This document shows, in pieces, positions 17,208-34,351 of a DNA stretch of 64,000 bases (the first letter of the stretch is position 1; each line of letters starts with the position of its first letter). The notes under the pieces were generated by a model. It did no database searches. It saw nothing but the letters and a program-made list of their open reading frames with translations, and was not told the origin of the DNA. This DNA is from Oscillospiraceae bacterium (GTDB lineage: Bacteria; Bacillota; Clostridia; Oscillospirales; Oscillospiraceae). Position numbers and translations under genes: made by a program. The DNA is taken from the NCBI GenBank assembly GCA_017452505.1, contig JAFTMI010000035.1, positions 1 to 64,000 on the forward strand, written 5' to 3'.

Positions 17208-19949
17208 TCAATTAAGGGAAAGCGTGGCAGTTAACTTGACCTTTTCCGGGGTACTGGACTTCACAAACACACGGGCCTTGCCATAATGGAAACGCACCTT
17301 GTAGGACTTCTCAACCAGCTTACCCACTTTAACATAGCCGGAAATAGGCAAGCCGGAGGATTCCTGCTGTTCTGTTACCACAGTCAGATGATTTTCCCCT
17401 TCTAAGATATTGCAGTAGAATCTGTAAGGACGTATATTGCAGCAGGACACTCGACCTTGTCCACGTAGATTGTCCCCAAGCAATTCTCCATTTAAATACA
17501 CCTTTGCTGCACCTCCCAATCGCTCAAATTCCACATATTCATATCCCTTATCGTTTATAAAACGGGTCGTGAGCGTTAGTGTTTCCTTAGGCAGGCGGTT
17601 GTCACTGTTTTGTGCAACTGTTCGGAAATCGTCCTCATAACCATTGACTTTCGGCTCCTTTTCAACGTAGTCATAGCGCCTGCGGTGCATATTGGGCATC
17701 TTCATCGGCACGCTGTACATCCCGTGGTCATAATGGAAAGTGCGCAGGAAGATTGCCTCTTCCTCCAAAGGATTCTGTTCATTGTCCAGGCATGCAGGGT
17801 CGCCATTGCCCACACCAATAATCTTGCCGTTCTCCACGCAGAGATTCAGCATATTATTGGCAACGGGATTGATGTTTCCATCCGCGTCATAGGCCTCAAG
17901 TTGATAGATGGCCACATCCTCATAGGACTGAGCCGACAGCTCTGCTACACAGCGTACTTCTGCTGTTTTTCCTGCTGTACAGATTGTATCTCGGTATATC
18001 TTGCCGTTACGTTTACCCTCAGCTGTGATCTCGCCCGGCTGGAATTCCACTGTAAAGGCAGGCGCATCGAACCCAGCAACCTGCTTTGTCTCCACGGCAT
18101 TGCCATTGATATACAGCGTGACCTCCTCGCAGTTGGTAAACACATGCATAGTCACAGTTTCACCCACTTTATGATTCCAGTGGGGCGTCAGCTTTAACAC
18201 AGGCTCCTCTGTCCACCATGCCTTAAAATACCAGAAGGGCGGCTTTTCCATTCCACACAGGTCAATCGCACCAAAACTGGAAGATACATTCGTAGTAACA
18301 AAGGGGTTTGGCTCACCCCGGTAGTCAAAGCCGGTCCACATAAAGCCGCCGGCGAGCCAGGGTGTTTCCTCAAAGCGCTTCACAAAACCCTTGGGAGTTG
18401 TACCCCACGGCATTGTCACATCGCCCGCTGAGCTGAGCAAACCATTACCTAAATCGGTCCGGACTCCGCCTCGGCTGGCCACAAAGCTGGTTTCCTCCGT
18501 GCCGATTACCGGCTGATTCGGATGTTCCCTGTGATAGGTTTCCAGCCATGTACCGTCACCGGTGCCATTGCGGATATAGTTGATACCCCGCACCTCTGAC
18601 GCACCGCCTGCGCCAATGTACCATTCACCAATATTGCTACCATAGGTGACAGGACGGGTATCGTCCAGTTCCTTAGCAAGGCGGGTCATTTTTTCCATCA
18701 GTCTTCCGCTGATTGGCAGATGCTGAACCCGGAACTCTTCATTGCCCAATGCCCAGATAAAGACGCTGGGGTGATTTCTGTCCCGCTCAATCACATCAGT
18801 CAGCTGACGCACCGCCTCAGGGGAAGTGCCAAACATACGGGTCTCATCCATCACCAGCATACCTAACTCGTCACAGGCATCCAAAAGAGCTGGCGAAGGT
18901 GCATGGTGGGCGCAACGGTAGGCGTTTACACCCATTTCCTTGAGCTTTTTGATCTTGTAACGGTTTAGATTATCAGACAAAGCTATACCCACACCACCGA
19001 AATCTTGATGGATACAGGCCCCCCGTATCTTATATTCTTTGCCGTTGAGCAAGAATCCCCGTTCCGCATCAAAGGCCACTGTGCGGATTCCGAACCGCTG
19101 TGAGGTTTCCTCCGCGCCGGCCTGAATAGACAAAGTATACAAATTGGGGCTCTCCACAGTCCAATATTGGGGATTCTCCACCTGCATCTGAACCCACACC
19201 TGATGCCGATTGTAGGCCGGAATCGTCACATTTTCAGAGGCCGTGGCTACCACAGTTTTATCATCCCGGATTTCCCACTGCAGTGACAGTGTTGCCGGTG
19301 CATCGGTATCGTTGACCAGCACTGCTGTGGCATATACTGTTCCATCCAAGGCAGTTTTGACCACAGTTTGATTATATTGGAAATAGACCGGCTCTGCCAC
19401 CCACAGATTCACGTGACGGTAGATGCCCGCGCCTTCATACCACCAGCCCTCAGGCTGGTCGCTATCCACACGAACAGCAACGGAATTATCCTCGTCCGGC
19501 AGGATGTGGTCGGTAATATCCAGAATAAAGCCAGTATACCCGCTACAGTGCCGATCCATATAGCTACCGTTGACCCACACGATGGCATCGCGAAACACAC
19601 CCTCAAATTCCAAAAACACACGCTTGCCCTCCCACGCAGGGTCAAAGGCAAACTGTTTGCGGTACCAGCCCACATTGCATATTTTCTCCACCGGACTCCA
19701 GCGCTCAGTCATATAGCGGTGAAAATGAGAATTGGCCCGCGCGCCGGCAAAGGTATTCGCAGCCAAATTCTTGGGCAGGGAAACTGCCCAGTCATGGGGC
19801 AGATCAATTCTCTCCCAGTTGCTGTGATCATAAAAGCGAGCCGGTGCGCCACTGGCATCAGCGTATTTATCAAAGCCAAAAATATTAAAAGCATCCAGCG
19901 TATTGTCGAAGGTAAATTCCCAGTTATGGTCAAAATTGAACTTTTTCAC
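17208..19949 (-). CDS. Glycoside hydrolase family 2 (beta-galactosidase-like)
   Basis: 913-aa retaining glycosidase with no signal peptide, so probably cytosolic. Order: N-terminal sugar-binding jelly roll (about 1-185), Ig-like domain (about 190-290), TIM-barrel catalytic domain (about 295-600) and C-terminal beta domains. The general acid/base is Glu404 in FIWALGNEEF and the nucleophile is Glu485 in PVIGTEETSF, both standard family 2 contexts. Other signatures are WYRKQF, GVFRDAIVWVNG and NAYRCAHHAPSPALLDACDE. Start codon is GTG after GGGGGA. The exact substrate (beta-galactoside, beta-glucuronide or beta-mannoside) cannot be told by eye; the length and DUF4982-like C-terminus favour beta-galactosidase. 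No transporter or regulator is adjacent. Confidence 0.9.
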   Translation of the reverse strand: MKKFNFDHNWEFTFDNTLDAFNIFGFDKYADASGAPARFYDHSNWERIDLPHDWAVSLPKNLAANTFAGARANSHFHRYMTERWSPVEKICNVGWYRKQFAFDPAWEGKRVFLEFEGVFRDAIVWVNGSYMDRHCSGYTGFILDITDHILPDEDNSVAVRVDSDQPEGWWYEGAGIYRHVNLWVAEPVYFQYNQTVVKTALDGTVYATAVLVNDTDAPATLSLQWEIRDDKTVVATASENVTIPAYNRHQVWVQMQVENPQYWTVESPNLYTLSIQAGAEETSQRFGIRTVAFDAERGFLLNGKEYKIRGACIHQDFGGVGIALSDNLNRYKIKKLKEMGVNAYRCAHHAPSPALLDACDELGMLVMDETRMFGTSPEAVRQLTDVIERDRNHPSVFIWALGNEEFRVQHLPISGRLMEKMTRLAKELDDTRPVTYGSNIGEWYIGAGGASEVRGINYIRNGTGDGTWLETYHREHPNQPVIGTEETSFVASRGGVRTDLGNGLLSSAGDVTMPWGTTPKGFVKRFEETPWLAGGFMWTGFDYRGEPNPFVTTNVSSSFGAIDLCGMEKPPFWYFKAWWTEEPVLKLTPHWNHKVGETVTMHVFTNCEEVTLYINGNAVETKQVAGFDAPAFTVEFQPGEITAEGKRNGKIYRDTICTAGKTAEVRCVAELSAQSYEDVAIYQLEAYDADGNINPVANNMLNLCVENGKIIGVGNGDPACLDNEQNPLEEEAIFLRTFHYDHGMYSVPMKMPNMHRRRYDYVEKEPKVNGYEDDFRTVAQNSDNRLPKETLTLTTRFINDKGYEYVEFERLGGAAKVYLNGELLGDNLRGQGRVSCCNIRPYRFYCNILEGENHLTVVTEQQESSGLPISGYVKVGKLVEKSYKVRFHYGKARVFVKSSTPEKVKLTATLSLN

Positions 19950-20107: not shown

Positions 20108-20136
20108 TTGCAAAATCATATGTAGCGTGGTATAGT
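20108..20136 (+). promoter_or_regulatory. Sigma-A promoter of the aromatic operon
   Basis: TTGCAA (20108-20113), 17-bp spacer, TATAGT (20131-20136). Transcription should start near 20143, just ahead of the leader peptide ribosome-binding site. Confidence 0.85.
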
Positions 20137-20166
20137 AACTGCATACTTATCATTTGGAGGCCAATT

Positions 20167-20235
20167 ATGGTCACTTCTGTAAATGCTGCATACAGCTACT
20201 TTTATTACTATTACTTTTTTAACGAAGAAAAGTAA
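20167..20235 (+). CDS. Tyr/Phe-rich leader peptide of the aromatic amino acid operon
   Basis: 22-codon open frame with a strong ribosome-binding site (GGAGG, 6 nt before the ATG). The peptide starts MVTSVNAA, then Y-S, then eight consecutive aromatic residues (YFYYYYFF), ending NEEK. In all there are six Tyr and three Phe codons. It lies between a sigma-A promoter and an intrinsic terminator that precedes aroF, the classic layout of ribosome-mediated attenuation as in the E. coli pheA and trp operons. The peptide itself likely has no function. Its translation would report the supply of charged tRNA-Tyr and tRNA-Phe. Confidence 0.9.
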   Translation: MVTSVNAAYSYFYYYYFFNEEK

Positions 20236-20312
20236 TAGCGATTTGTGCTGCATTTATTTTTGTAAGTCGTATTGTCAGACGCTGCACAGGATCGTATCTG
20301 TGCAGCGTTTTT
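20208..20312 (+). promoter_or_regulatory. Transcription attenuator of the aro operon
   Basis: Three pairings can be drawn. (1) CTATTACTTTT (20208-20218, in the Tyr/Phe codons) pairs perfectly with AAAAGTAATAG (20228-20238). (2) Antiterminator: GCGATTTGTGC (20238-20248) pairs with GCACAGGATCGT (20284-20295), with one bulged G and G-U pairs. (3) Terminator: CGCTGCACAG (20280-20289) pairs with CTGTGCAGCG (20298-20307), followed by TTTTTAT. A ribosome that finishes at 20235 would cover the antiterminator's left arm and favour termination. One stalled on the aromatic codons would leave that arm free. The mechanism is inferred from these pairings. Confidence 0.85.
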
Positions 20313-20331
20313 ATATTTAGGAGATGTTGTT

Positions 20332-21333
20332 ATGATTGCTGTATTGAAACAGGGTACTACCCCAGAACAAACCGAACATCTGATCAAGTGGCTCAAGAAT
20401 ATGAGCCTGGATGTACATGTTTCTCACGGACAAGAAGTCACCATTCTTGGTTTGGTTGGCGATACCAGCCGTGTAGACATTGAACTATTAAAAAGTTTGG
20501 AGATCGTGGCAACGGTAAAGCGAGTTTCCGAACCTTTTAAGCAGGCTAATCGAAAATTCCACCCCAACGACAGTGTTATTGACTGCAGCAATGTAAAAAT
20601 CGGCGGCGGTAATTTTGCTATGATTGCAGGTCCTTGTTCTGTAGAAAGCGAAGATCAGATCATTGAGGTTGCACAAGCCGTAAAGGCAGCCGGCGCTGAC
20701 ATTCTCCGTGGCGGCGCGTTTAAGCCCCGCACTTCACCCTACGCCTTCCAAGGACTGAAGGACCAAGGCATTAAACTTCTCTTAGAGGCTAAGAAGGCCA
20801 CCGGTATGCCAATCATTACCGAAATTATGAATATTCGTACTCTGGATCTTTTTGAGGACGTGGATATCATTCAAGTTGGCGCCCGTAATATGCAGAACTT
20901 TGACCTGCTGCAAGAATTGGGCAAAACCCAAAAGCCTATTCTATTGAAGCGTGGTCTTGCCAACACCTTACAGGAACTGTTGATGAGTGCAGAGTACATT
21001 ATGAGCGAGGGCAACGAAAATATTATCCTCTGCGAGCGTGGCATCCGCACCTACGAAACCTATACCCGTAACACACTGGATCTGTCCGCTATTCCCGTTT
21101 TACACGAACTGTCTCACTTGCCTGTAGTTATCGACCCCAGCCACGCAACCGGCCGTGCAGCCTTGGTTCCCCCCATGGCAGTCGCTGCAGCCGCAGCCGG
21201 CGCTGACGGTATTATGGTAGAGGTTCACAACAATCCTGCCTGCGCAATGTGTGACGGCGCACAGTCCCTAACTCCTGTACAGTTTGATGAATTGAACCAA
21301 AAAGTGCAAAAAATCAGAGAGGTAATAAAATGA
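20332..21333 (+). CDS. aroF: 3-deoxy-7-phosphoheptulonate synthase (DAHP synthase, type I-beta)
   Basis: First shikimate step: PEP plus erythrose 4-phosphate gives DAHP. The 333-aa product has an N-terminal ferredoxin-like regulatory domain (residues 1-70), typical of the type I-beta subfamily, where aromatic products bind. A TIM-barrel catalytic domain follows: MIAGPCSVES, LRGGAFKPRTSPYAFQG, DIIQVGARNMQNF, ILLKRGL, CERGIRTYE and DPSHATGR. The ATG at 20332 is chosen (AGGAGA upstream); the earlier ATG at 20272 would place the terminator hairpin inside the coding region. First gene of an eight-gene operon; tyrA overlaps it by 4 nt. Confidence 0.96.
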   Translation: MIAVLKQGTTPEQTEHLIKWLKNMSLDVHVSHGQEVTILGLVGDTSRVDIELLKSLEIVATVKRVSEPFKQANRKFHPNDSVIDCSNVKIGGGNFAMIAGPCSVESEDQIIEVAQAVKAAGADILRGGAFKPRTSPYAFQGLKDQGIKLLLEAKKATGMPIITEIMNIRTLDLFEDVDIIQVGARNMQNFDLLQELGKTQKPILLKRGLANTLQELLMSAEYIMSEGNENIILCERGIRTYETYTRNTLDLSAIPVLHELSHLPVVIDPSHATGRAALVPPMAVAAAAAGADGIMVEVHNNPACAMCDGAQSLTPVQFDELNQKVQKIREVIK

Positions 21334-22160
21334 ACGTAGGTATCCTGGGGCTTGGTTTGATCGGCGGTTCTCTCGCGAGAGCTTATTCCAAGGCCGGACA
21401 CAGTGTGTATGCCTGTGAACAGGACGAGAGTATGCTGACCTTTACGCAGCTTACCGGGGCAGTTACAGGTGTTTTGGATCACGATACCATCCCCACTTGT
21501 AATTTGATATTGTTGGCAATCTTTGCCGATGGCTCTGCACAATGGTTGAAAAGCAATGCCCATCTGATAGCTAAAGAAGCCCTTGTTATAGACTGCTGCG
21601 GTATTAAAAAAGCCATCTGTGAACGATGTTTTCCCTTGGCAGAAAAATACGGTTTCACCTTTATGGGCGGTCACCCAATGGCGGGCTCTCACAACTCCGG
21701 ATTTAAGTACAGCCGGTCCAATCTGTTCCAGGGCGCTCCTATGGTGCTTGTACCCTCCCAGTTTGACGATCCGGAGCTTTTGCAACGGGCAGTTGATGCG
21801 CTTGAACCCTGCAAATTTGGTTCTTACTCCGTTACAACCGCCGAAGAACACGACAAGATGATCGCATTTACATCACAAATGCCCCACATCGTCAGCAATG
21901 CATTCATTAAATCTCCCACAGCGCAGAACCACAAAGGTTTTTCTGCCGGCAGTTACAAGGATCTGACCCGTGTTGCCTGGCTGAATCCCCAAATGTGGGC
22001 GGAATTATTTATGTCCAACAAGGAAAATGTGCTTTTTGAGTTAGAATCCTACATCAAAAATCTGGAAGCATATAAAGATGCCATTGTTCGGGACGATGAG
22101 AATACACTGATTGCCCTTTTGGATGAGGGACGCAAACGCAAGGAAGAGGTGGACGGATGA
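21330..22160 (+). CDS. tyrA: Prephenate dehydrogenase
   Basis: Oxidises and decarboxylates prephenate to 4-hydroxyphenylpyruvate with NAD(P), the committed Tyr step. 276 aa. Rossmann motif at the N-terminus (VGILGLGLIGGSLARAY), catalytic-region HPMAG (in FMGGHPMAGSHNSGF) and the helical C-terminal domain with FTSQMPHIVSNAF. There is no C-terminal ACT domain, so feedback control by Tyr through such a domain is not expected. It starts with an ATGA overlap with aroF and ends 4 nt into aroB. Confidence 0.94.
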   Translation: MNVGILGLGLIGGSLARAYSKAGHSVYACEQDESMLTFTQLTGAVTGVLDHDTIPTCNLILLAIFADGSAQWLKSNAHLIAKEALVIDCCGIKKAICERCFPLAEKYGFTFMGGHPMAGSHNSGFKYSRSNLFQGAPMVLVPSQFDDPELLQRAVDALEPCKFGSYSVTTAEEHDKMIAFTSQMPHIVSNAFIKSPTAQNHKGFSAGSYKDLTRVAWLNPQMWAELFMSNKENVLFELESYIKNLEAYKDAIVRDDENTLIALLDEGRKRKEEVDG

Positions 22161-23194
22161 AAAACATCAAAGTTACCGCATCCAAAAGCTACGATGTTTT
22201 GATTGGTGTGGGCTTACTGAATAACTTGGGCCAACAACTTTTATCCGTGCTGAATAAAACCTGCAAAATTGCCATTATCAGTGACAGCAATGTTTGGCCT
22301 TTATACGGAAAAATCGCAGAATCCGCCTTGACCAACGCCGGGTTTTCCGTGGTAAATTTTGTATTTCCTGCAGGCGAGAGCAGCAAAAATGCCGATACAT
22401 ATATAAACATTCTCAACTTCCTTGCAGAAAACCATCTGACCCGTTCCGATGCGGTGCTTGCTTTGGGTGGCGGTGTTACAGGCGATATGACCGGCTTTGC
22501 TGCTGCAACATTTCTGCGCGGCATCCGGTACATTCAAGTTCCCACTTCCCTGCTGGCAATGGTTGATTCCTCTGTGGGCGGCAAAACTGCCATTGACCTA
22601 CCTGCCGGAAAAAACTTAGTAGGCGCATTCTACCAACCCAACTTGGTTTTGTGCGACCTGGATACGTTGAATACACTCCCTGATTCCGTTTTCAGTGACG
22701 GCTGCGCCGAAGTGATCAAATACGGAGTTTTATACGACCGGGAATTATTTGACCATTTATCTGACAAAGGTCTTGGCTTTGACCGTGAAGCCGTCATTGC
22801 CCGGTGCGTGGAACTGAAGCGAAATGTGGTTGCTGAAGATGAATTTGATACCGGCGCAAGACAGAAGCTGAATTTAGGCCACACCATCGGTCACGGCGTG
22901 GAAGCGCAAAGTGATTTTTCCATCACGCATGGACAGGCAGTTGCCATTGGTATGGCCATTGTTTCAAAAGCAGGCTGTCCGGCAATTTATGCCGAACTGT
23001 GTGCCGTTTTGGAGAAATTTATTTTGCCTACAACCACCGTTTTTTCTGCAAAAGATCTGTACACCAGCGCCCTTTCTGACAAAAAACGCTCCGGAGGTAC
23101 AGTGAATCTAATTATTCCCCGGGAAATAGGACATTGTGAAATCGTCCCCACCCCTGTGGAAAAGCTGGAATCCTTTATCGAAGAAGGTCTGTAA
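22157..23194 (+). CDS. aroB: 3-dehydroquinate synthase
   Basis: NAD- and metal-dependent conversion of DAHP to 3-dehydroquinate, second shikimate step. 345 aa, normal. Motifs: PAGESSKN, ALGGGVTGDMTGFAAATFLRG (NAD binding), PTSLLAMVDSSVGGKTAID, and metal ligands around EVIKYG, LNLGHTIGHGVEA and ITHGQAVAIGM. ATGA overlap with tyrA; aroA starts one base after its stop. Confidence 0.96.
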   Translation: MKNIKVTASKSYDVLIGVGLLNNLGQQLLSVLNKTCKIAIISDSNVWPLYGKIAESALTNAGFSVVNFVFPAGESSKNADTYINILNFLAENHLTRSDAVLALGGGVTGDMTGFAAATFLRGIRYIQVPTSLLAMVDSSVGGKTAIDLPAGKNLVGAFYQPNLVLCDLDTLNTLPDSVFSDGCAEVIKYGVLYDRELFDHLSDKGLGFDREAVIARCVELKRNVVAEDEFDTGARQKLNLGHTIGHGVEAQSDFSITHGQAVAIGMAIVSKAGCPAIYAELCAVLEKFILPTTTVFSAKDLYTSALSDKKRSGGTVNLIIPREIGHCEIVPTPVEKLESFIEEGL

Positions 23195-23195
23195 T

Positions 23196-24392
23196 ATGGA
23201 CATTACCATACTGCCCGGTGCCTTAAGTGGTACCGTCCGGGCAATACCCTCCAAATCCCAAGCCCACAGGTTGATGATATGCGCTGCTTTTTCTGACAGA
23301 CAAACCATGCTTGAATGTCCGCAAACCAACGCTGACATCGAAGCAACTGCCCGCTGCTTGAATGCCTTGGGCGCAAATATCCGGCGTACAGACGACGGAT
23401 ACATTGTCGATCCTGTTAAGGATATACCGCAAAGGGCCGTACTGGACTGTGGTGAAAGCGGTTCTACGCTGCGATTTTTATTGCCTGTAGCCTGTGCTTT
23501 GGGTGTGGAAGCTACTTTTCAAATGCAAGGCCGTCTTCCCTATCGGCCACTGTCACCAATGTGGGAAGAACTGGAGAGAATGGGTTGTAGCTTGACCCGT
23601 CCTACCGAAACAACGATCCTTACAAGCGGCAGGTTACATTCCGGAGAGTTTTCTCTCAGCGGCAAGGTTTCCAGCCAGTTTATTACCGGACTACTCTTCG
23701 CTACCGCCTTACTGGGCGGTGCAAGTCAAATTACCATCACCGATACGCTGGAATCCAAATCCTATGTGGATATGACACAGATGGCTCTAAGCATTTTCGG
23801 TGTTAATACGGATAACTACCGCGTTAAGGGCAACTTTCCTTTCCAATCCCCCGGAAATTTGACAGTTGAAGGCGATTGGAGCAACGGTGCTTTTTGGCTA
23901 GCAGCGCAGGCTCTCGGTAACCCCCTTTCTGTCACCAATCTTGACTTAGGCTCTCCCCAAGGTGACAGGGCTTCTGTAAAAATACTGAGAAATTTAGAAG
24001 ATAACATAACTGTTTCCGCAGCAGATATTCCCGATTTGGTACCGGTTTTAGCTGTTGTTGCCGGTGCAAAAAAGGGAGCAGTCTTTACGGATATTGCCCG
24101 TCTGCGATTGAAAGAATCCGACCGTGTAGCATCAGTTTGTAATATGCTAAACACTTTGGGTGCGAATGCTTTTGCGGATGAAAACACATTGACCGTGCAA
24201 GCGGGAAAATACCACAACTGTACCATCGATGCTGTAAATGACCACCGCATTGCAATGTCCGCTGCCATAGCGGCTACCGTTGCAGACGGACCTATAACCA
24301 TCTTAGGTGCGGAATGCGTAGCAAAATCCTATCCTGCATTTTGGCAGGTATACAAAGAATTAGGAGGCAAGTATGAGCAGCACATACGGTGA
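23196..24392 (+). CDS. aroA: 3-phosphoshikimate 1-carboxyvinyltransferase (EPSP synthase)
   Basis: Adds enolpyruvate from PEP to shikimate 3-phosphate. 398 aa, somewhat shorter than the roughly 430-aa standard. PSKSQAHRLMICAAF carries the substrate-binding Lys/Ser, and DCGESGSTLRFLLPVA replaces the common LGNAGT stretch, a class II-like variant. SGKVSSQFITGLLFA, RLRLKESDRVA and VNDHRIAMSAAIA follow. The ATG at 23196 follows the aroB stop directly and has GAAGAAGG upstream; the longer in-frame start would lie inside aroB. The DCGESGST variant may affect glyphosate sensitivity, which is inference only. Confidence 0.95.
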   Translation: MDITILPGALSGTVRAIPSKSQAHRLMICAAFSDRQTMLECPQTNADIEATARCLNALGANIRRTDDGYIVDPVKDIPQRAVLDCGESGSTLRFLLPVACALGVEATFQMQGRLPYRPLSPMWEELERMGCSLTRPTETTILTSGRLHSGEFSLSGKVSSQFITGLLFATALLGGASQITITDTLESKSYVDMTQMALSIFGVNTDNYRVKGNFPFQSPGNLTVEGDWSNGAFWLAAQALGNPLSVTNLDLGSPQGDRASVKILRNLEDNITVSAADIPDLVPVLAVVAGAKKGAVFTDIARLRLKESDRVASVCNMLNTLGANAFADENTLTVQAGKYHNCTIDAVNDHRIAMSAAIAATVADGPITILGAECVAKSYPAFWQVYKELGGKYEQHIR

Positions 24393-25449
24393 AAAGCTGA
24401 AGCTTTCCATATTTGGACAATCCCACGGGCCCGCCATCGGTATGACATTGGACGGAATTCCTGCCGGTCTTCCCGTTGATTTTGAGGCATTGAATGCCTT
24501 TATGGCTCGACGGGCTCCCGGCCAGGGAAGTTTTGCAACATCACGAAAAGAGGCCGATCAGCCGGAATTTCTCTCCGGCCTTGTAGACAGCTTCACTTGC
24601 GGCGCACCGCTGTCTGCCATTATCCGCAACACAAACACCCGCTCCGGGGATTACAGCAACCTCAAGGACTGTCCCAGACCCGGTCATGCAGACCTCCCTG
24701 CACAAATCAAATACAAAGGCTTTCAAGATGTTGCCGGCGGCGGACATTTTTCCGGTCGTCTTACCGCACCTTTGTGCATTGCCGGCGGTCTGTGCAAGCA
24801 GTGGTTGGGAAAAAAGGGCATTCACATTGGCGCTCATATCAGTTCCGTTGCAGGAATTACTGACAAGCTCTTTGATCCGGTATCGCCTGATCTTGCCGCC
24901 GTGCAGGACGGATTCCCGGTGATAGACCTCTCTGCTGGCAAAAAGATGCTTGCTGAGATTGAAAAAGCAAAAGCTGATAGTGATAGCGTCGGCGGTACAA
25001 TTGAATGCGCCATTACCGGCCTGCCTGCCGGATTGGGTGAGCCTATGTTCGGTGGTCTAGAAAGCAAGCTCGCACAAATCATTTACGGCGTTCCCGCTGT
25101 GAAAGGGTTGGCGTTTGGCTCCGGCTTTGCCGGCAGTGAACTCCGTGGCAGTGAAAACAACGATCCCTATACCATCACAGATAACAAGATTACAACCATT
25201 ACCAATAATGCCGGTGGCATTTTGGGTGGCATCACTACCGGTATGCCTTTGATTTTTAAGGTCGCTATTAAGCCCACACCTTCCATCTCCCGGCTGCAGC
25301 AATCTGTGAGCCTTGATCGCATGGAGCAGCAAGAACTGTCCGTGCAGGGCCGTCACGACCCCTGCATTGTGCCCCGGGCAGTTCCGGTCATCGAAGCCGC
25401 AACAGCAATTGCTATTTTTGATATATGTTTACTGGACGGTAAGTTTTAG
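24373..25449 (+). CDS. aroC: Chorismate synthase
   Basis: FMNH2-dependent loss of phosphate from EPSP to give chorismate. 358 aa. Signature sequences: SIFGQSHGPAIGMTLDGIPAG at the N-terminus, ARRAPGQGSFATSRKEAD, RPGHADLPAQIKYKG, AGGHFSGRLTAPLCIAGGL and C-terminal GRHDPCIVPRAVPVIEAATA. It overlaps aroA by 20 nt, with its ribosome-binding site (AGGAGG) inside the end of aroA. Confidence 0.97.
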   Translation: MSSTYGEKLKLSIFGQSHGPAIGMTLDGIPAGLPVDFEALNAFMARRAPGQGSFATSRKEADQPEFLSGLVDSFTCGAPLSAIIRNTNTRSGDYSNLKDCPRPGHADLPAQIKYKGFQDVAGGGHFSGRLTAPLCIAGGLCKQWLGKKGIHIGAHISSVAGITDKLFDPVSPDLAAVQDGFPVIDLSAGKKMLAEIEKAKADSDSVGGTIECAITGLPAGLGEPMFGGLESKLAQIIYGVPAVKGLAFGSGFAGSELRGSENNDPYTITDNKITTITNNAGGILGGITTGMPLIFKVAIKPTPSISRLQQSVSLDRMEQQELSVQGRHDPCIVPRAVPVIEAATAIAIFDICLLDGKF

Positions 25450-25460
25450 GAGGAATCACA

Positions 25461-26603
25461 ATGGATTTGAAAGATATCAGAACACAAATTGATGCCGTCG
25501 ACGATGAGCTTGTTCAGCTTTTCGTCAAGCGCATGAATTTATCTGCACAGGTCGCAGATTACAAAAAAGCAAACAACATGCCTATTTATATACCTGCCCG
25601 GGAGCGGGAGATCTTACAGGATGTGGCTGCGAAAGCCGGACCGGAAATGGCAAATTATACCCGGGTGCTTTACTCTATGCTCTTTGAGCTGAGCAGAAGC
25701 TATCAGAGCAAGCGCAACTCCGAAATTACTCCCTTGTATCAAAATATCACCGCATCCATCGACAAGACCGAAAAGCTCTTCCCCCAAGCACCTATGGTTG
25801 CCTGCCAGGGCGTAGAAGGCGCTTATTCTCAAATTGCCTGCGAGAAGATTTTTAAATCGCCGATGATTATGTATTTCAAGAACTTTGATGGTGTTTTCAA
25901 TGCCATTGAACAGGGTCTTTGCCAGTACGGCATTCTGCCCATTGAAAACTCTACAGCCGGTTCTGTGAAAAAGGTCTATGACCTGATGATCCATCATAAC
26001 TTCTCCATTGTGCGAACCTTCCGAATGAAGGTGGATCACAATTTAATTGCCAAACCCGGTACTAAGCTCTCTGACATAAAAGAAGTTTACTCCCATGAGC
26101 AAGCTATCAGCCAATGTGGTGATTTCTTGAAGACTATGCCCGGAGTGAAGGTAATTCCTGTTGAAAACACCGCCGTTGCAGCTGAAACCGTCGCTAAATC
26201 AGGCAGAACAGACATTGCCGCTATCGCCAGCCATGCCTGCGAAGAACTGTATGGTCTTAAGAGCCTGGCAGATTCCGTGCAGGATGAGGGCAACAATCGT
26301 ACCCGCTTTATCTGCATCAGTAAGAATTTGGAGATATATCCCGGCGCAGATAAGACCAGCATTATGATGATTCTACCCCACAAGCCCGGCGCGCTTTACA
26401 AGGTGCTGGCCCGTATGTATGTGCTGGGTATCAACGTTATAAAACTGGAATCCCGGCCTTTGCCGGATAAGGATTTCGAGTTTATGTTCTATTTCGATCT
26501 GGAGACCTCCATTTATTCTGAAGAGTTTGTCCAGCTGATGTGCGAATTGGACGATCTTTGTGAAGAATTTAAGTATCTTGGAAGCTATACCGAGGTGGTA
26601 TAA
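25461..26603 (+). CDS. pheA: Bifunctional chorismate mutase / prephenate dehydratase
   Basis: 380-aa fusion that makes prephenate from chorismate and then phenylpyruvate. Residues 1-85 are an AroQ-type helical chorismate mutase (IDAVDDELVQLFVKRMNLS). Residues about 110-290 are prephenate dehydratase (CQGVEGAYSQIACEKIF, YGILPIENSTAGSVKKVYD, NRTRFICIS). The C-terminus is an ACT domain (PGALYKVLARMYVLGINV, then ESRP), the usual Phe feedback site. The chorismate mutase also supplies tyrA. AGGAGG precedes the ATG 11 bases after aroC. Confidence 0.96.
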   Translation: MDLKDIRTQIDAVDDELVQLFVKRMNLSAQVADYKKANNMPIYIPAREREILQDVAAKAGPEMANYTRVLYSMLFELSRSYQSKRNSEITPLYQNITASIDKTEKLFPQAPMVACQGVEGAYSQIACEKIFKSPMIMYFKNFDGVFNAIEQGLCQYGILPIENSTAGSVKKVYDLMIHHNFSIVRTFRMKVDHNLIAKPGTKLSDIKEVYSHEQAISQCGDFLKTMPGVKVIPVENTAVAAETVAKSGRTDIAAIASHACEELYGLKSLADSVQDEGNNRTRFICISKNLEIYPGADKTSIMMILPHKPGALYKVLARMYVLGINVIKLESRPLPDKDFEFMFYFDLETSIYSEEFVQLMCELDDLCEEFKYLGSYTEVV

Positions 26604-27827
26604 ATGAAATGCGGATTACTGGGCAGAACTCTGGGCCACAGCTATTCACCGCAAATTCACAGCTATTTGGGTGATTATCCCTATACCCTCTTTGAGAAGG
26701 AACCGGAGGATGTGGGAAGTTTCCTGAAAAACGGCGATTTCACAGCCATCAATGTAACAATCCCTTACAAAAAGGATGTTATGCCCTACTGCGCCGAGCT
26801 GACAGATTGTGCGAAAAAGATGGGTGCTGTCAATACCATTGTTCGCCGCACTGACGGTGCATTGATCGGCCATAATACCGATTACTTTGGACTGCATTAC
26901 ACCTTTAACCGTATGGGGCTTTCACTAACCGGAAAGAAAGTTTTGGTACTTGGCAGCGGTGGCGCATCTGTAACAACCGTAATTGTCTTAAAGGAACTGG
27001 GTGCAAATGTGGTAATCATCTCCCGCACCGGTGAGAACAACTATACCAATTTACATCTGCACAGGGATGCAGCAGTCATCGTAAACACCACCCCAGTGGG
27101 TATGTACCCAAATGCCGGTGTTTCTCCGGTGGATTTGGATATGTTCCCAAGCTTAGAAGGTGTACTGGATATTATTTATAACCCAGCAAGAACAAAGCTT
27201 TTGCTCGACGCTGCTGAAAGAAATATCCCCTGTGAAAACGGACTTTGGATGCTGGTTGCCCAGGCCAAAGAAGCTGCTGAATGGTTCACCGGCACAAAAA
27301 TCAGCGATGATGTCATTCCCGAAATCTATGACAAAATGTGCAAGCGAATGGAGAACATCGTACTGATTGGAATGCCCGGCTGCGGAAAATCTACAATTGG
27401 CAAATTACTTGCCCAAGAACTGAACCGCGAATTTATAGATGCTGATGCAGAAATTGTAAACGAAGCGGGTATGTCTATTCCCGAAATCTTTGAAACGCAG
27501 GGAGAAGAGGGCTTCCGCAAAATTGAAATGCAGGTACTGACAAAATTAGGTCAAAAATCCTGTCTTGTGATTGCTACCGGCGGTGGCTGCGTCACCAAGG
27601 CGGAAAACTACCCACTTTTGCACCAAAATGGCACGATTTATTGGATCAAGCGGGATATTGCTTCCCTGCCCACTGACGGAAGACCCCTTTCCCAAGCAGG
27701 CAAGCTGGAGCAAATGTATAAGGTCCGCAAACCTTTATACGAACAGTTTGCAGACTGTGCTGTGTCCAACGATAACTGCCCGGGCGATGCTGTTGCCAAG
27801 ATCTTGAAAGGACGAAACGACAAATGA
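26604..27827 (+). CDS. aroE-aroK: Shikimate dehydrogenase / shikimate kinase fusion
   Basis: 407-aa two-domain protein. Residues 1-245 are shikimate dehydrogenase: GHSYSPQIHSYLG (shikimate Ser residues), NVTIPYKKDV (catalytic Lys), GHNTDYFG (catalytic Asp) and the NADP loop VLGSGGASVTTVIV. From Met249 a complete shikimate kinase follows: P-loop IGMPGCGKSTIGKLLA, FIDADAEIV, GFRKIEMQVL, ATGGGCV and the lid Arg in DGRPLSQAG. One polypeptide thus carries two steps that are not consecutive with aroQ but are consecutive with each other (dehydroshikimate to shikimate to S3P). It starts directly at the pheA stop. Confidence 0.96.
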   Translation: MKCGLLGRTLGHSYSPQIHSYLGDYPYTLFEKEPEDVGSFLKNGDFTAINVTIPYKKDVMPYCAELTDCAKKMGAVNTIVRRTDGALIGHNTDYFGLHYTFNRMGLSLTGKKVLVLGSGGASVTTVIVLKELGANVVIISRTGENNYTNLHLHRDAAVIVNTTPVGMYPNAGVSPVDLDMFPSLEGVLDIIYNPARTKLLLDAAERNIPCENGLWMLVAQAKEAAEWFTGTKISDDVIPEIYDKMCKRMENIVLIGMPGCGKSTIGKLLAQELNREFIDADAEIVNEAGMSIPEIFETQGEEGFRKIEMQVLTKLGQKSCLVIATGGGCVTKAENYPLLHQNGTIYWIKRDIASLPTDGRPLSQAGKLEQMYKVRKPLYEQFADCAVSNDNCPGDAVAKILKGRNDK

Positions 27828-28258
27828 AAATTTTAGTCTTAAACGGCCCCAATATTAATATGCTTGGTATTCGTGAGCCTGGCATTTACGGAAAGCAGAC
27901 CTTTGCCGATCTTTTGGATTTGTTGAACAAAACCGCTATAGAAACCGGCATTGAAATTGATCAATACCAATCCAATCACGAAGGGGCTCTTGTAGACAAG
28001 ATCCAAGCTGCTTACGGGAATTACGATGGTATCGTTATCAATCCGGCAGCCTACACCCACACCTCAGTTGCCATTTTGGATGCGTTGAAATCCGTTTCGA
28101 TTCCCGCTGTGGAAGTGCACATCTCTGACGTGGATTCCCGGGAAGCATTCCGGCAGATCTCTTATGCGGGTATGTACTGCGAGAAAACCATAAAAGGTCA
28201 AGGATTGGACGGCTATCGGCAAGCAATCATATATCTTATAGAAAAGTACGGTAAATAA
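27824..28258 (+). CDS. aroQ: 3-dehydroquinate dehydratase, type II
   Basis: Reversible trans-dehydration of 3-dehydroquinate to 3-dehydroshikimate by the dodecameric type II enzyme. 144 aa, normal. LNGPNINMLGIREPGIYG (the flexible loop with catalytic Arg and Tyr), YQSNHEGALVDKI, INPAAYTHTSVAI and EVHISDVDSREAFRQ are all conserved. ATGA overlap with aroEK. Last gene of the operon; a strong terminator follows. Confidence 0.97.
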   Translation: MKILVLNGPNINMLGIREPGIYGKQTFADLLDLLNKTAIETGIEIDQYQSNHEGALVDKIQAAYGNYDGIVINPAAYTHTSVAILDALKSVSIPAVEVHISDVDSREAFRQISYAGMYCEKTIKGQGLDGYRQAIIYLIEKYGK

Positions 28259-34162: not shown

Positions 34163-34351
34163 CGCCTCTTATGCCGCTGGCACAAGAGGCGGGTCAAACA
34201 ACTCGCGGTTCCACTCTTATTTATCACTCAAAACAGATTCGCTCCCGGACGCACTTTCCTGCCACCGACACCACCCGGGCTTACAGCCGACGACCCGAGC
34301 TCTCTGAAGGATTGGATGCAGTACTCTTTCCGTTCACAGCGATATTTAATT
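34163..34351 (-). ncRNA. T-box riboswitch (Cys) upstream of cysS
   Basis: On the minus strand a leader of about 190 nt contains the T-box core GAGTGGAACCGCG (34216-34204). It ends in a terminator, CGCCTCTT paired with AAGAGGCG (34191-34163), followed by T6. The likely specifier codon is TGC (34253-34251, in the context AAAGTGCGTC), which codes for Cys. The bulge reads TGGA, complementary to the UCCA end of tRNA-Cys (discriminator U73). Uncharged tRNA-Cys would therefore stabilise the antiterminator and allow cysS transcription. AGAGAGC and GGTGT elements of stem I are also present. This leader plus the lipoprotein promoter fill the 320-bp gap between cysS and the next gene. Confidence 0.92.

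Follow-up and report, generated by a model that had tools for sequence, protein, structure and literature searches.

A predicted Tyr/Phe leader-peptide attenuator ahead of an aromatic amino acid operon in an Oscillospiraceae bacterium and its clostridial relatives

In Firmicutes, control of aromatic amino acid genes is usually told as a matter of TRAP and T-box. What, then, is a short ORF with eight consecutive Tyr and Phe codons doing between a promoter-like site and an intrinsic terminator, directly ahead of a DAHP synthase gene? The locus lies in a stretch of 64,000 nucleotides from a gut clostridium (contig JAFTMI010000035.1, assembly GCA_017452505.1), here called the window, and an initial annotation made from its letters had read the layout as attenuation of the enterobacterial pheA or trp type. 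The parts of the element, their conservation and covariation and the content of the operon all agree with that reading, and on the strength of the sequence data we consider it highly probable that the leader is a ribosome-mediated transcription attenuator of the aromatic operon.

The leader element and its operon

The leader spans about 200 nt between a divergently transcribed glycoside hydrolase gene and aroF (Table 1). Its frame, ribosome-binding site and codon run can be read directly, as they had been initially, and a second in-frame stop codon, TAG, follows right after the TAA. In the six frames of the 64 kb this is the sole run of at least six aromatic residues, and with eight aromatic residues in nine the leader stands apart from the other members of a set of 562 small ORFs of the window led by a Shine-Dalgarno sequence, which reach at most five in any nine. 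The leader RNA folds 4.5 standard deviations below its dinucleotide shuffles, with 0 of 200 equally low. No Rfam family matches anywhere in the window at gathering score, and at E up to 1 the leader draws just three families, two of microRNAs and one from Dictyostelium, each scoring far below the gathering threshold.

A mechanical scan finds the promoter-like site and the terminator on either side of the ORF, as had been claimed, the latter about 22 nt from the aroF start; by chance, 1.9 promoters and 0.6 terminators would be expected in a scan of the leader region. The upstream site had been called a sigma-A promoter, a name that rests on its consensus match and its conserved position: in the genus the best site agrees with the consensus at 8 or more of 12 positions in 36/36 leaders and at 9 or more in 32/36, a score that 9.6% of shuffles reach as well, and in 35 of the 36 the end of its -10 element is separated from the ATG by 28-36 nt.

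The eight genes of the operon overlap or nearly do so and, by Pfam, cover the chorismate pathway together with the Phe and Tyr branches; no Trp-branch gene is found by Pfam among the eight. The description of an entire shikimate operon is thus right for chorismate, Phe and Tyr and leaves the Trp branch missing. The control codons, Tyr and Phe, correspond to amino acids which the operon makes. As to the organism having been called a spore former, support is limited to the Spo0A_C domain, which is present in 35 of 36 genomes searched, its own included.

Table 1. Features of the leader, its operon and the upstream neighbour in the window
Feature	Position	Strand	Basis and remarks
Glycoside hydrolase, divergent neighbour	17208-19949	-	ORF call, Pfam
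Promoter-like site, TTGCAA-17-TATAGT with TG before -10	20108-20136	+	mechanical scan; sigma-A-type
Leader ribosome-binding site, GGAGG	20156-20160	+	direct reading; similar in genus alignment
Leader peptide ORF, MVTSVNAAYSYFYYYYFFNEEK, 22 codons	20167-20235	+	ATG 20167, TAA 20233-20235
Region 1, leader codons 5' of run; can pair with region 2 without ribosome	20185-20193	+	folding; weakly to moderately supported assignment
Control codons YFYYYYFF, eight Tyr/Phe in a row	20197-20220	+	direct reading
Codon hairpin, control codons and ORF end	20208-20238 (20208-20217 with 20229-20238)	+	folding, covariation
Region 2, antiterminator 5' arm	20238-20251	+	folding, covariation, spacing
Intrinsic terminator, stem 20277-20310 (14 pairs) and T-rich tail	20277-20316	+	mechanical scan, covariation
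Region 3, antiterminator 3' arm (terminator 5' arm and loop)	20281-20295	+	folding, covariation
aroF-type DAHP synthase (PF00793 and PF18152)	20332-21333	+	Pfam
tyrA, prephenate dehydrogenase	21330-22160	+	Pfam
aroB, 3-dehydroquinate synthase	22157-23194	+	Pfam
aroA, EPSP synthase	23199-24392	+	Pfam; ATG 23199 chosen by eye, mechanical ORF from 23136
aroC, chorismate synthase	24373-25449	+	Pfam
pheA, chorismate mutase-prephenate dehydratase	25461-26603	+	Pfam
Shikimate dehydrogenase (N-terminal domain match) and shikimate kinase, one ORF	26604-27827	+	Pfam
aroQ, type II dehydroquinase	27824-28258	+	Pfam

The predicted switch and its geometry

The attenuators of E. coli work through the alternative pairings 1:2, 2:3 and 3:4. 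For the present leader, RNA folding returns both the antiterminator (20238-20248 with 20284-20295) and the extra hairpin (20208-20218 with 20228-20238) that had been drawn by the initial annotation; the former can be extended past one mismatch by 20250-20251 with 20281-20282. Antiterminator and terminator are mutually exclusive, and by folding and spacing region 2 is so placed that a ribosome stalling in the run would leave it free and one completing the ORF would mask it. We propose that, under a shortage of charged tRNA-Tyr or tRNA-Phe, the leading ribosome would stall within the run and, covering an assumed 14 nt or so ahead, would leave region 2 free to pair with region 3 as the polymerase reaches about position 20296, and that the antiterminator so formed would pre-empt the terminator and allow transcription of the operon. 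With charged tRNAs plentiful, the ribosome would reach the stop codon and cover region 2, and the terminator would form. Without a ribosome, the codons just 5' of the run may pair with region 2, with termination as the likely default. The codon hairpin probably pauses the polymerase and so synchronises it with the first ribosome. We infer leader translation, stalling, readthrough, this pausing role and the sensing of both amino acids from the arrangement. For Tyr, sensing is an assumption, since the Phe-Tyr-Phe leader aroR of Corynebacterium glutamicum is described as responding to Phe, with Tyr availability being without effect (PMC11802643).

Step-wise folding of the window leader, under the same assumption of a footprint of about 14 nt, gives the antiterminator with 12 pairs once the polymerase is at 20296 if the ribosome is placed at codon 14 or 18, and no antiterminator if it is placed at the stop codon. 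With no ribosome, region 2 pairs with the leader codons when the polymerase is at 20290, yet the antiterminator is favoured at 20296-20300, before the terminator wins, so that termination is a less than clear-cut default. In all cases of step-wise folding the completed terminator exceeds the antiterminator in stability, at -28 against -16 kcal/mol in the window, and antitermination must therefore be kinetic; a thermodynamic reading, in which the antiterminator would be the stabler of the two, was rejected, as the reverse holds in folding. Across the family, the protector pairing 1:2 is enriched, lying at or below 5 of 100 shuffles in 36 of 115 leaders, but it is weak in the genus (5/36).

The position of the antiterminator arm bears on which point of the ORF the RNA refers to. 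In 81 distinct leaders from outside the genus that have a terminator, each represented by its best antiterminator arm, this arm starts at a median of 20 nt (interquartile range 15.5-23) past the point where the aromatic codons end, and in 63 of the 81 it starts between +10 and +26, as compared to 28% for shuffled spacers. Measured from the stop codon, the same arms are spread (interquartile range -25 to +2). In some lineages the arm is translated (L127, ...RVKAICVA) and in the genus it follows the stop, while the nucleotide motif persists. This spacing and the persistence of the motif fit selection on an RNA whose placement would be set by a ribosome that stalls within the run.

Conservation and competing explanations

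The genus set consists of 36 distinct leaders, namely 30 loci from the window's own assembly and 29 same-genus genomes and six further loci, which are genus-level by 78-83% DAHP synthase identity and not by taxonomy (one is titled Faecousia sp., the others are mostly Oscillospiraceae and unplaced Clostridia and Bacillota MAGs). The set leaves out four further genomes of the genus in which DAHP synthase is matched (G010, G025, G034 and G035), and L044 (74%), which has an aromatic leader too, was excluded from the genus alignment A1. Near-identical leaders occur (L023/L025, L033/L036 and L008/L014/L037), so the 36 are not independent. All 36 distinct loci inspected carry an aromatic leader, typically ...AAQFYFxYYYFF..KK, and all 36 a terminator. 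In A1 the codon hairpin is paired to 99.7%, the antiterminator to 95.7% and the terminator to 92.5%. Both sides have changed in 7 of the 10 terminator pairs, the codon hairpin has one double change, in L028, where a Tyr codon has become Ser and the partner has changed with it, and the covariation score of terminator and codon hairpin together is reached by 0 of 500 shuffles. The signal of the antiterminator is modest because its 5' arm hardly varies within the genus: both sides have changed in 3 of 9 pairs, a count that 5 of 500 shuffles reach, as for instance in L002, whose arm has GUGU facing ACAC. The check on close relatives thus comes out as the attenuation reading had called for, with the aromatic run kept throughout and three stems paired with compensatory changes.

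Beyond the genus, a leader with at least five aromatic residues in nine is found in 87 of 104 distinct upstream regions, taken from same-genus loci and DAHP synthase relatives, and in none of the other 17, in a count that carries no shuffle control. In an evenly drawn class sample, a leader with at least six aromatic residues in nine is present at 36 of 98 DAHP synthase loci (36 of 92 genomes) and one with at least five in nine at 43 of the 98; the corresponding figures for a phylum sample are 4 and 8 of 60 loci (59 genomes). Shuffles reach these thresholds in 0.2% and 1.4% of cases, and the reverse strand in 0 and 2 of 158. The loci of both samples were picked from longer lists as the best place per genome plus a few second copies, with weaker and partial matches left out, and a few of their upstream regions are truncated, one of them to 132 nt. 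A terminator is found in 118 of 126 leaders, and in 74 of the 118 (42 of 82 outside the genus) the antiterminator duplex beats at least 57 of 60 shuffles. Among cultured relatives, Angelakisella massiliensis has such a leader, at L067.

Alignment A3 joins 30 sequences across families, which were partly picked by the motif of the antiterminator arm and are thus biased upwards. Here hairpin and terminator show double changes in 10 of 18 pairs, a count reached by 7 of 500 shuffles, and their covariation score exceeds that of every one of the 500. One hairpin pair has changed on both sides in 13 of the 30 sequences; in L127, for instance, TAT for Tyr is replaced by TTT for Phe and the pairing partner has changed to match. 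The antiterminator is 92.1% paired in A3, with a covariation score reached by 2 of 500 shuffles and three doubly changed pairs, a count reached by 105 of 500.

Could the terminator be controlled by a TRAP-like or other RNA-binding protein, or by a small-molecule riboswitch, with the aromatic peptide incidental? A terminator with an antiterminator would by itself be compatible with antitermination of any kind, and near invariance of the antiterminator arm in the genus is what a binding site would show. Then again, the aromatic run persists while the length, start and stop of the peptide vary, the antiterminator is spaced from the codon run, TRAP (PF02081, with B. subtilis as positive control) was not found in the window's own assembly, which is 82.5% complete, and no Rfam family matches at the window leader or at the 20 leader-positive loci tested. 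We regard such control as very unlikely.

Equally improbable, in our estimate, is that not tRNA charging but a peptide-specific arrest of the nascent chain, or translational coupling, is at work. The similarity of the FYYYYFF-type runs in the genus and the C-terminal Lys-Lys or Lys-Arg of most of its leaders are in line with an arrest peptide, but outside the genus the peptides differ widely in everything save aromatic density, and the lysine tail is accounted for by the hairpin partner AAAAAGUAAUAG. Coupling is ill suited to a leader whose stop is separated from the aroF start by about 97 nt that include the terminator. That a T-box reads uncharged tRNA directly at the leader, as at other genes of this genome, is scarcely credible, as the T-box model (RF00230), which finds 12 places in the same assembly, five of them over its cut-off, gives no hit at the leader even with E relaxed to 1, the ORF takes up what is a short leader, and T-boxes at gathering score stand before DAHP synthase at 2 of 55 leader-negative class loci and at 0 of 20 leader-positive loci tested.

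The T-box matches of the assembly that are over the cut-off precede a leuA-like gene, tyrS, metG, an acyl-CoA-ligase-like gene and ileS; those below it precede a TrpX-like gene, trpB (E 4e-19), thrS (twice), a TrpB-like gene and alaS, whereby the leuA-like, ligase-like, IleS, ThrS and TrpX-like proteins score below the NCBIfam cut-offs and some are incomplete. A further sub-threshold T-box of the genome search (62 bits, E 3.5e-13) lies in the window at 34182-34346 on the minus strand, ahead of an ORF that we take to be cysS. The two thrS loci (L118 and L277, at G000:C35 and G000:C67) are near-identical and each has a T-box match, with one of them scanned for its protein family; given an assembly contamination of 6.1%, they probably reflect a mixture of strains. 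At the two class loci with a T-box before DAHP synthase, L186 and L214, the scan gave no aromatic leader; here one sensing system appears to have been exchanged for another.

Reach of the family and known leaders

Do leaders of this kind, read as ribosome-mediated attenuators, serve other genes as well? A covariance model of the element, R1, was searched on an order and a class sample of 245 genomes each and matches in 26 and 17 genomes, respectively (G000 in both), a smaller number than the ORF scan would lead one to expect. Twenty matches were fetched, of which 13 lie before DAHP synthase, two before a phenylacetate-CoA-ligase-like gene and one some 450 nt ahead of tyrS, from which a small ORF, read by eye, separates it; the other four (L296-L299, E 1e-4 to 7e-4, L298 being cut by a contig end) precede no recognised aromatic gene and are probably chance hits. 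At both ligase loci, L281 (G554:C158) and L284 (G105:C53), a Phe-rich leader with the same layout of antiterminator and terminator precedes the PaaK-like gene, and the ORF after it is presumably an ACT-domain protein. The tyrS locus, L283 (G450:C16:34560-34670), has the Tyr-containing leader MTRNNVFGTGNYYCKE, the same motif and a terminator, and no Rfam family at gathering score. The E-value is strong for L281 (5e-11), and those of L284 (4.4e-4) and L283 (1.6e-4) are no better than those of the chance hits, so that these two loci rest on their visible leader, motif and terminator.

The name PaaK is approximate, since the ligases score below the NCBIfam PaaK cut-offs. An association of the leader with PaaK genes in general was rejected, as 2 of 30 loci inspected (of 128 genomes with a match) have it; both belong to one genus, a third inspected member of which is without a leader. 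As Phe can also come from phenylacetate in the rumen (PMC7356843), a Phe-sensing leader before a PaaK-like ligase would be sensible, and we offer it as a lead, not a result. Joining these observations, the clostridial leaders may form one old and mostly vertically inherited attenuator family with a Phe/Tyr regulon that comprises the aro operon widely and, now and then, the PaaK-like ligase and tyrS, alongside T-boxes that serve Trp and other amino acids. In such a family the control codons would make up one side of a conserved hairpin, and the antiterminator would be positioned from the run rather than from the stop codon. We put this forward tentatively, as a picture that falls somewhat short of being probable as a whole.

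How much of this is new? The closest relative by description is aroR-aroF of C. glutamicum, likewise a Phe/Tyr leader before an operon with a DAHP synthase gene in a Gram-positive, where stalling raises transcription, as is only proposed here (PMC11802643, PMC4046766); C. glutamicum is however an actinobacterium, and its leader has Phe-Tyr-Phe as opposed to the eight control residues of the present one (PMC11802643). Similarly, uORFC-13-1 of Acholeplasma is described as an uORF with at least one Phe codon, a ribosome-binding site and a terminator before aroF, with attenuation predicted (PMC8632094). Compared by that description, it differs in that its 24 representatives come from Acholeplasma and environmental sequences only and in that no Tyr/Phe run is part of the account given, as against the eight-codon run here (PMC8632094). 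The attenuators pheL-pheA, pheST and trpL of E. coli are summarised in PMC11802643. They share the codon run and the terminator, but respond to Phe or Trp alone and control genes of a single branch, whereas a chorismate-Phe-Tyr operon is at issue here. In low-GC Gram-positives the same type of mechanism is described for other amino acids and operons, with His leaders in Firmicutes (PMC2965389; PMC9413887, five Eubacteriales species among them) and the Leu-rich leader of the Staphylococcus aureus ilv operon (PMC5794164). The initial annotation had considered translation-coupled Tyr/Phe control of DAHP synthase notable for Firmicutes. This needs correcting in so far as leader-peptide attenuation is known in Firmicutes (PMC2965389, PMC9413887, PMC5794164) and a Phe/Tyr leader ahead of DAHP synthase is known in Gram-positives (C. 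glutamicum aroR, PMC11802643). The mechanism is classical, and even its target, aroF, is known from elsewhere, namely from C. glutamicum and Acholeplasma (PMC11802643, PMC8632094).

Among top-ranked titles and abstract openings in open-access PMC we found no report of this Phe/Tyr leader element in Clostridia. The part that appears to be unreported there is a broad clostridial leader family without an Rfam match, found in an assembly that also has T-boxes before tyrS and trpB, and with a few copies ahead of a PaaK-like ligase and perhaps of tyrS. Ribosome-mediated Phe/Tyr attenuation looks common in one large class with many gut members. For annotation, the rule would be to take a short aromatic ORF ahead of DAHP synthase as a probable leader, and the 125 distinct leaders provide a natural series for probing the geometry of attenuators.
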